Shown here: piece after piece, positions 1 to 28,693 of the stretch
Layout: each line of letters begins with the position of its first letter
How positions within the stretch are numbered: the first letter of the stretch is position 1
Translations under genes and position numbers: made by a program
Notes under the pieces: model-generated
Databases searched by the model: none
What the model was told of the DNA's origin: nothing
What the model saw: the letters and a program-made list of their open reading frames with translations, nothing else
Source of the DNA: Fidelibacterota bacterium
Lineage (GTDB): Bacteria; Fidelibacterota; Marinisomatia; Marinisomatales; TCS55
Length of the DNA: 64,000 bases
Direction of reading: 5' to 3'
Assembly: GCA_018674655.1 (NCBI GenBank)
Contig: JABGZQ010000066.1
Location: 62,001-126,000 of the forward strand

Positions 1-2083
1 CAAACAGATCCCCAACAACATTCATCCCATCCATTAGAGGGCCTTCGATCACATGAATTGGACGTTCATACTTTTGGCGTGCTTCTTCTGTATCTTCCAC
101 AACAAAATCCGTAATGCCATCTACCAATGCATGACTTAGCCGTTCCTCAACGGTTTTTTCTCGCCATGATAAATCTTTTTTTGCTACTTTTTTTACCCCT
201 TGATATTCATCAGCGATTTTTACCAGCCGGTCTGTTGCATCTTTGCCACGATTAAATAACACATCCTCCACCCGTTCTTTTAAATCAGGTGGGATATCAT
301 CATAAAGAGTAAGTTGACCTGCATTTACAATTCCCATATCCATTCCCGCTTGAACGGCATGATATAAAAATGATGAATGCATCGCTTCACGAACACCGTT
401 ATTCCCACGAAAAGAAAATGAAAGGTTTGAGATACCACCGCTAATATGAACACTTGGCAATGTTTCTTTAATCGTTTTTACCGCTTTAATAAAATCCAAT
501 CCATACCCATTGTGCTCTTCAATTCCGGTGGCTACTGCAAAAATATTGGGATCAAAAATAATATCTTCGGGCGGGAAGCCGACCTCTTCCGTTAATATTT
601 TATAGGCTTGAGAGCAAATTTCTACTTTTCGATCATAAGATTCTGCCTGCCCTTTTTCGTCGAAGGCCATGACGATGACGGCAGCGCCATACTTCTTGAT
701 AATTTTTGCCTGGCGGATGAATTCTGCTTCGCCCTCTTTCATAGAAATTGAATTTACAATCCCTTTACCCTGAAGGTTTTTTAGGCCTTCTTCCAAAACA
801 GTCCATTTTGATGAATCCACCATGACCGGCACTTTGGCTATATCCGGTTCAGCCGCAATCAAGCGAAGGAATGTTACCATTGCCTCTTCGGAGTCAAGCA
901 ACCCTTCATCCATATTCACATCAATAATTTGGGCGCCATTTTCAATTTGCTGGCGTGCTACAGATAAGGCTTCCTCATAATTATCTTCTTTTATCAAACG
1001 GCGAAATTTAGCCGAACCAGTCACGTTGGTTCGTTCACCAATATTTACAAAATTACTCTCAGGACGAATCGTAACCGGTTCAAGTCCGCTTAGTTTGGTT
1101 AACGGGTCTATATCTGGAATCTTACGTGGTGTCAATCCTGCAACTGCTTTAGAAATCGCTTTAATGTGCGGTGGCGTTGTACCACAGCAACCACCGACCA
1201 AATTTACCAATCCACTTTCAGCAAATTCTTTAATGATGGCCGCCATTGCTTCAGGAGATTCATCATACTCACCAAATTCATTCGGCAAACCCGCATTCGG
1301 ATAAACAAAAACAGGAATATCCGCAATTGTAGATAATTCATCTAGCCAGGGGCGAATTTGTTCAGCACCTAACGCACAGTTAAGCCCCACGGCTGTTAAA
1401 TTTGCATGACGAATAGAATGCCAAAAAGCTTCGACTGTTTGGCCGGATAAAGTTCGGCCACTTGCGTCCGTAATTGTTCCTGAAACCATGATAGGAATTT
1501 CAATCCCACGTTCTTCCAACAAAGTTTGAACGGCAAAAAGTGCCGCCTTACAATTGAGCGTGTCAAAAACAGTTTCAATTAAAAATAGATCAACGCCACC
1601 GTCTAAAAGGCCTTTTGCTTGGTCATAATATGCGATTTTTAATTCATCGAAGGAAACATTACGAAATCCCGGGTCATTCACATCAGGACTCATGGAGGCT
1701 GTACGGTTAGTTGGGCCCAATGCACCGGCCACATACCGCGGTTTATCTAAATATGTTTTTGCGATAGATTTAGCAATTTTGGCTGCTTCAAAATTGATCT
1801 CATAAGCCAGATCTTCAATGCCATAATCCGCTTGAGAAATGGCATTCGCATTAAAGGTGTTCGTTTCAACAATATCCGCACCAACATCATAATAGGCTTT
1901 ATGGATTTCACCGACAATATCAGGTCGACTCAAACACAATAAATCATTATTCCCTTTTAAATCGCAAGAATGATTTATGAATCGATTCCCACAAAAATCA
2001 GCCTCAGTTAATTTATATGATTGAACCATGGTTCCCATGGCACCATCAAAAACTAAAATGTTATTATTGAGTATTCTTTTCAT
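1..2083 (-). CDS. metH: Cobalamin-dependent methionine synthase, N-terminal two thirds (cut by left window edge)
   Basis: Transfers a methyl group from 5-methyltetrahydrofolate to homocysteine through cobalamin, giving methionine. My translation from the ATG at 2083 runs open to the left edge (about 694 codons). The homocysteine-binding barrel comes first (VFDGAMGTM near the start, then GLNCALG and GGCCGTTP carrying the zinc-binding cysteines). The pterin-binding domain follows ([31 protein letters not shown]), and then the start of the cobalamin cap region. The B12 and SAM-reactivation domains must lie beyond the window. A GGA-containing Shine-Dalgarno sits just before the ATG. The gene stands alone behind a SAM-II-type riboswitch and a terminator, so SAM feedback is the likely control. 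The family assignment is secure; only the 3' end is missing. Confidence 0.97.
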
Positions 2084-2092
2084 CTTTTTCCT

Positions 2093-2122
2093 AATAAAAA
2101 ACCCCGATGCTAAACCAGGGTT
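2093..2122 (-). terminator. Intrinsic terminator in the metH leader
   Basis: On the minus strand AACCCTG (2122-2116) pairs with CGGGGTT (2106-2100) around a 9-nt loop and is followed by a T-rich run. It lies between the aptamer and the metH start codon, so it can only work as an attenuator. The loop TTTAGCATC (2114-2106) is complementary, with one G-U pair, to GGTGCTAAA (2140-2132) in the aptamer tail, giving a 9-bp antiterminator. Ligand-bound aptamer would free the terminator and switch metH off. Confidence 0.8.
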
Positions 2123-2126
2123 ATCT

Positions 2127-2178
2127 ACCTTTTTAGCACCATTCTTTTATGTCGCGGCAATAGGGCATAAATGACGAC
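2127..2178 (-). promoter_or_regulatory. SAM-II-type riboswitch aptamer upstream of metH
   Basis: The minus-strand leader has the SAM-II layout. A P1 stem forms between GTCGT (2178-2174) and GCGAC (2155-2151). The P1 loop starts ATTTA and contains CCCTATTGC (2165-2157). The 3' tail GCTAAAAAGG (2137-2128) can form the H-type pseudoknot with that loop (CC with GG, GC with GC, U/A contacts between). I recall the family consensus as CCxUAUUGC in the loop and GCUAAAAAGG in the tail; both match, and the length of about 52 nt fits. Placement before a methionine synthase gene is typical. SAM-V, which shares this core, is the main alternative. A covariance-model search was not possible here. Confidence 0.83.
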
Positions 2179-2229
2179 AAGTCAAAGTTAGGGGTAAAAT
2201 TAAGTTCACATCAACCTCAAAAATGTTCA

Positions 2230-28151: not shown

Positions 28152-28693
28152 TTGGACTCTAATACCGTAATTGCATCATTGGTATAAATACATAACTCAG
28201 CTGCAATTAAGAGGGATTTTTCCACAACCTTTTTCGCGGGATAGGTGGTGCTTTTCATATAGGCCGTGGCTGCAGCCTGGGCAAAACCACCACCAGAACC
28301 AATCGAAATAATTGGACCATCCGGCTCAATTACATTTCCATCACCGGATACAATAAAAGCGTGTTTTTTATCCATAAGGGCCAACAAGGCTTCCAAATGG
28401 CGAAGAAATTTATCTGTTCGCCATTCTTTGGCTAACTCAACAACAGCCCGGGTTAAATTCCCTTCATATTCATCCAATTTAGATTCGAATTTTTCAAAAA
28501 GGGTCAAAGCATCGGCAGCGGCACCAGCGAACCCGCCAAGAACAATTCCTTTTTCAGAATCAAACTTTCGAACCTTTATTGCTTTTTGCTTAAAGGCCAT
28601 ATCTCCAAAGGTGACTTGTCCATCACCACCCATGGCTATTTGTCCTTTTTTCCGAATACCTAAAATGGTGGTTGATCGAATTTTTACATCCAT
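28148..28693 (-). CDS. hslV: HslV peptidase subunit of the HslUV protease
   Basis: Threonine peptidase of the bacterial proteasome-like HslUV complex. The 181 residues begin MDVKIRSTTILGIRKKG; the catalytic threonine is T8 of TTI, so a 7-residue propeptide must be removed. GQIAMGGDGQVTFGD and GSGGGFAQAAATA are family-typical. It follows hflC directly and precedes hslU with a 4-nt overlap. Confidence 0.97.
   Translation of the reverse strand: MDVKIRSTTILGIRKKGQIAMGGDGQVTFGDMAFKQKAIKVRKFDSEKGIVLGGFAGAAADALTLFEKFESKLDEYEGNLTRAVVELAKEWRTDKFLRHLEALLALMDKKHAFIVSGDGNVIEPDGPIISIGSGGGFAQAAATAYMKSTTYPAKKVVEKSLLIAAELCIYTNDAITVLESK

Follow-up and report, generated by a model that had tools for sequence, protein, structure and literature searches.

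The DNA upstream of metH in the window (the whole stretch analysed, 64,000 nt) raises the question of how an RNA resembling a SAM-II riboswitch, encoded on the minus strand ahead of an intrinsic terminator, might control this gene in a bacterium of the Marinimicrobia. We find that the metH leader is very probably a transcriptional OFF switch that would respond to SAM by early termination, as judged from comparison of related leaders and from folding models. The analysis bears directly on the parts of the leader, on how well they are conserved, on how tail and terminator co-evolve and on a predicted structural switch; that SAM is the ligand, where transcription starts, and in which direction and how strongly the switch acts in the cell are what we infer. 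The features of the leader, with the gene that it precedes, are as follows.

2183..2190, minus strand: promoter-like box TAACTTTG, a putative promoter, 4 nt upstream of P1
2174..2178, minus strand: P1, 5' strand GUCGU
2164..2166, minus strand: 5' strand of the P2 pseudoknot, GCC, within the P1 loop, partner GGU at 2129-2127
2165-2157, minus strand: loop CCCTATTGC
2151..2155, minus strand: P1, 3' strand GCGAC
2132..2140, minus strand: antiterminator 5' strand GGUGCUAAA, which overlaps with the tail of SAM-II; exact pairing with 2114-2106, covariation and swap test
2128..2137, minus strand: conserved SAM-II tail GCUAAAAAGG (also GCTAAAAAGG), containing the core of the ligand pocket and the 3' strand of P2; agrees with the tail conserved in RF00521 and occurs in nearly all leaders
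2117..2119, minus strand: CCU of the terminator 5' arm, partner of AGG 2130-2128 of the tail in the antiterminated fold (leader MFE fold)
2100..2122, minus strand: intrinsic terminator hairpin of nine pairs with a 5-nt loop, then a U tract to 2096
2106..2114, minus strand: antiterminator 3' strand UUUAGCAUC, the terminator loop and the start of its 3' arm
2..2083, minus strand: 5' part of metH, the regulated gene, running off the window (TIGR02082)

The earlier note on this DNA, made from the letters alone, had listed hallmarks of SAM-II in this leader, and every element that it quoted lies on the minus strand where it had placed it. From 5' to 3', the promoter-like box is followed by P1, the loop, the tail, the terminator hairpin with its U tract, and the start codon. 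P1 comprises five base pairs (2178-2174/2155-2151), the last of them U.G, and P2 is formed by G2166.U2127, C2165-G2128 and C2164-G2129. The loop sequence within the leader is GCCCUAUUGC, the extended tail GGUGCUAAAAAGG occupies 2140-2128, and the tail ends (2128), as the note had stated, 44 nt from the ATG (2083). Comparison with the RF00521 alignment and 105 sequences reveals that the UUGC and GCUAAA core is present and that the window loop departs from the family at two positions (CAUUUA versus GAUUUG).

A covariance search with RF00521 agrees with the SAM-II reading, the leader giving a full-model match of 32.8 bits (E 7.7e-6 in a 351-nt scan) and, over the whole 2.13-Mb genome, the sole significant match (E 1.1e-5). 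The Rfam gathering cut-off for this family is 36 bits, so that the window copy, though significant, lies under it; consequently, Rfam run over the window with default settings returns no match, and the aptamer is found in E-value mode. The next-best match in the genome (about 28212-28303, 17.3 bits, E 0.175) was considered as a second SAM-II and set aside as chance. SAM-V, which the earlier note had also named for a model search, gave no covariance-model match up to E 10 in 2050-2400; further Rfam matches of the leader, NsiR1 and MicC among them, were set aside as low-scoring and attributable to terminators or AT-rich DNA. We thus assign the leader to the SAM-II family, with SAM as the presumed ligand.

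The gene downstream is MetH, with a TIGR02082 (metH) score of 1105 bits that exceeds the model's cut-off, which places the SAM-II element before a methionine/SAM gene. Named relatives of this MetH assign the bacterium to Marinimicrobia/Neomarinimicrobiota. In 93 leaders aligned on P1, boxes are conserved relative to this stem (T-A-A-n-T-T-T at -12 to -6 and T-rich at -37 to -33), and the box at 2183..2190 predicts that transcription probably starts at about the first aptamer base. In relatives such as G082 the metH ATG abuts the U tract; the window codon at this place is AGG (2092-2090), part of an AGGA that lies 5 nt upstream of the next in-frame ATG at 2083. A lost metH start codon may here have turned into a ribosome site (region 2092-2081).

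The terminator that the earlier note had recognized behind the tail folds at -10.5 kcal/mol (z = -3.5 versus shuffles). The nine pairs that it had proposed between 2140-2132 and 2114-2106 are likewise present, or ten if U2141-G2105 is counted. In shuffles with G-U allowed, however, at least nine pairs arise with P ~0.14 and at least ten with P 0.06; the match in this single sequence is not significant, and its significance comes from the relatives. Left unconstrained, the window leader adopts the antiterminated fold as its MFE structure (-21.0 kcal/mol), and with the tail blocked, mimicking SAM binding, the terminator forms (-19.2). The antiterminator strand shares bases with both the aptamer and the terminator, so that sequence and folding both bear out the earlier claim that aptamer folding and antitermination exclude each other. 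In fact, the structural parts described for the window are conserved, with covariation, over about 98 metH leaders.

Across the leaders, the terminator folded in 91 of 94 when the tail was blocked in silico, the antiterminator folded in 90 of 94 when the loop had just been transcribed, and the terminator was the MFE structure in 59 of 94 complete, unconstrained leaders, all with folding energies that exclude the pseudoknot with SAM. Many leaders would therefore need kinetic control. We propose that transcription probably starts at P1 and that, when SAM is scarce, the free tail (GGUGCUAAA..AGG) would pair with the loop and the 5' arm of the terminator upon their emergence, allowing RNA polymerase to read into metH. 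With abundant SAM, the P1/P2 pseudoknot would be fixed and the tail held, the terminator would fold, and transcription would end short of the metH start codon with the release of an RNA about 85 nt long. Because the ligand-binding tail is itself part of the switching helix, ligand and antiterminator would compete for the same bases.

SAM-II matches were found in 94 of the 130 genomes of the host's order within the Marinimicrobia at E <= 0.01 (50 of 130 over the curated cut-off), in 105 of 245 genomes phylum-wide at E <= 0.001, and in none of 14 control genomes searched with RF00521. The Rfam cut-off misses many true SAM-II copies in this phylum. metH itself was found in 91 genomes of the order, 89 of which carry a SAM-II match; in one of the other two (G121) the contig begins inside the gene, and the second (G108) proves on reading to have a divergent copy with a changed yet paired P1 (GUCU/AGAC) and a terminator. 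Altogether, 98 SAM-II leaders precede metH in the phylum. A hairpin with a U tract was detected by script in 94 of 99 metH leaders and on reading in three more, the remaining two being G098, which has no terminator, and G077, which has a run of N. Most members of a small-genome clade (f9/g16) are without both metH and SAM-II, and two genomes of this clade, G036 (L043) and G020 (L012), keep the leader before a seemingly interrupted metH, as if the pair were on its way out. No paper describing SAM-II in Marinimicrobia/SAR406 was found among the open-licence papers searched.

The comparison with related metH leaders that the earlier note had suggested as a check reveals covariation in P1, P2, the terminator stem and the antiterminator. 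The fifth pair of P1 is UG in 77 of 93 leaders and otherwise GC (5), UA (5), AU (3) or CG (2). In P2, the third pair covaries (AU 27, GC 17, GU 15; none of 2000 shuffles as good), and the remaining two are C-G with hardly any variation. The tail NNGCUAAA stands opposite UUAGCNN of the terminator loop, and with the register fixed on this core motif, pair -1 is UA 42, UG 13, CG 9, AU 7 and GC 1, and pair -2 is GC 43, GU 18, UA 5, AU 5, UG 3 and CG 1, none of 2000 shuffles being as well paired at either position. The native register pairs 82% of cells, compared with 23-37% when it is slid by 1-2 bases. When tails and terminators were swapped among 39 genus representatives, tails paired with their own terminator over longer runs (6.59 versus 6.01 +/- 0.14 swapped, 0 of 2000 permutations) and with a stronger duplex (energy -8.57 versus -7.37 +/- 0.24 swapped). 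Shuffles retain shared ancestry, a concern that this genus-level test lessens and does not abolish. Only a termination switch would be expected to make tail and terminator co-evolve, which favours transcriptional over translational control.

These results bear on several other readings. The antiterminator could be a chance complement in a leader whose aptamer and terminator are real and switch by another route, and indeed 14% of shuffles of the single window sequence reach at least nine contiguous pairs and GCUAAA would be conserved for ligand binding regardless. Given the swap test, the covariation at two variable pairs and the slid-register control, together with the recurrence of a tail:terminator match in a Gemmatimonadales metH leader (L168, CCGCUAAAA with UUUUGGCGG), we regard this as the least probable of the alternatives and very improbable indeed. 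Hardly more probable is that the terminator is a constitutive attenuator or the terminator of a small RNA and the aptamer a relic that no longer senses SAM. The window copy does lie under the curated score, with two loop positions off consensus, and PMC9373788 describes a terminator of Sinorhizobium meliloti metA that works without clear SAM control. However, these loop positions are also variable among relatives scoring over the cut-off (such as G065, 41.4 bits, with CATTTG), nearly every leader has the ligand-pocket core, covariation is seen in P1 and P2, and aptamer and metH are retained and lost together.

Control of translation, in which SAM-bound P2 would hide AAGG of the tail as a distant ribosome site for metH, is somewhat less improbable than either of these, and still unlikely. 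Most metH leaders are without a canonical Shine-Dalgarno sequence beside the ATG, and in S. meliloti metA, according to PMC9373788, a Shine-Dalgarno sequence inside the aptamer serves a start codon beyond the terminator hairpin. Against this, a switch acting only on translation has no need of the co-evolution of tail and terminator, Shine-Dalgarno use in the phylum is weak (13 of 44 genes, counted over the 44 long ORFs of the window only), and the AGGA of the window, 5 nt before the ATG, lies downstream of the terminator. Moreover, the U tract or terminator 3' arm usually ends 4-9 nt before the ATG in metH leaders, too close for a Shine-Dalgarno site to fit in between and be masked by the aptamer. 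With the U tract of most leaders running directly into the metH start, the hairpin could act at two levels under one SAM-II aptamer, both ending transcription and blocking ribosome landing on escaped transcripts; we consider this extension of the termination switch conceivable, though we would bet against it.

Some Marinimicrobia carry a distinct and often tandem pair of SAM-II elements that does not precede met genes. The first element is followed by a terminator, and the second, about 110 nt downstream, is of a translation type whose stem and loop form 10-20 bp with a strand that otherwise covers the Shine-Dalgarno site. The second element is present in 10 of 245 genomes, and a scan of viral contigs for it gave no match. 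SAM-II-like elements head small unknown genes adjoining defence systems, or an operon with metK, at loci L227, L228, L224, L225, L230 and L234 (genomes G235, G086, G105, G182 and G087), and also at L208, L226, L229, L231 and L233. Neighbours include an Hma helicase, a type I methyltransferase and Schlafen (G235:C2), Druantia DruF/DruL (G235:C6), AbiE and Fic (G087), a ZorD-like helicase (G182) and HNH nucleases (G086 and G105), and an operon of G105 encodes an AAA ATPase, a DUF2201-like protein and MetK, with Fic and MetK named by eye from sequence; these neighbours represent many individual copies and not an enrichment figure over background. Such elements might be induced by a drop in SAM, as could be brought about by a phage enzyme that degrades it. 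Tandem SAM-II with mixed platforms has already been described, with 44 examples (PMC9481103), and a link of SAM-II to defence islands was not found among the open-licence papers searched; tandem SAM-II in defence islands may be more novel than the metH switch.

How, then, does the metH leader compare with known systems? The earlier note had framed SAM-II as usually hiding the ribosome-binding site, which is wrong, as most SAM-II RNAs are described as transcriptional; consequently, the terminator wiring seen here is the usual one and no exception, which corrects the impression of SAM-II as mainly translational. According to Corbino 2005 (PMC1273637), P2 is followed by a putative intrinsic terminator in many SAM-II RNAs, for which a genetic OFF switch was proposed. 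In PMC9373788 the S. meliloti metZ SAM-II is predicted to control an intrinsic terminator, and an attenuated RNA of about 100 nt is shown to become more abundant at high SAM. Reports of SAM-II terminators go back to 2005, and the mechanism proposed for the metH leader is not new.

With SAM-II (SAM_alpha, RF00521; PMC1273637, PMC2258182) the leader shares P1, the P2 pseudoknot, a GAUUU-type loop, UUGC, the GCUAAAAAGG tail, a downstream methionine gene and a terminator after P2. It differs in that the gene is metH rather than metA, metX, metY or metZ, the host belongs to the Marinimicrobia, and the window copy falls under the gathering score. For S. meliloti metZ, too, SAM-II is predicted to act on an intrinsic terminator, yet the gene there is metZ and the host an Alphaproteobacterium, and a comparative antiterminator test was not found in the passages of PMC9373788 consulted. 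In the marine-bacterial tandem of SAM-II and SAM-V, a SAM-II element likewise comes first and is followed by a terminator, whereas the second aptamer, SAM-V, controls translation and has no counterpart before metH here. SAM-I (S-box, RF00162) terminators follow the same logic, the SAM-bound aptamer freeing the terminator, with an unrelated four-way-junction aptamer. SAM-I precedes metH in several Bacteroidota (L122, L149, L184 and L186), and Gemmatimonadales metH leaders carry SAM-II (L139, 755-830, 51.4 bits; L168, 863-937, 50.6 bits) with terminator-like hairpins, the tail:terminator match of L168 being 9 bp long. The present comparison adds the predicted order-wide presence of SAM-II ahead of metH in Marinimicrobia and lends comparative support to its antiterminator: the alignment of this phylum allows a covariation test of a SAM-II antiterminator, and it places a candidate transcriptional switch of the SAM-II class before metH in nearly all of an order of uncultured marine bacteria.
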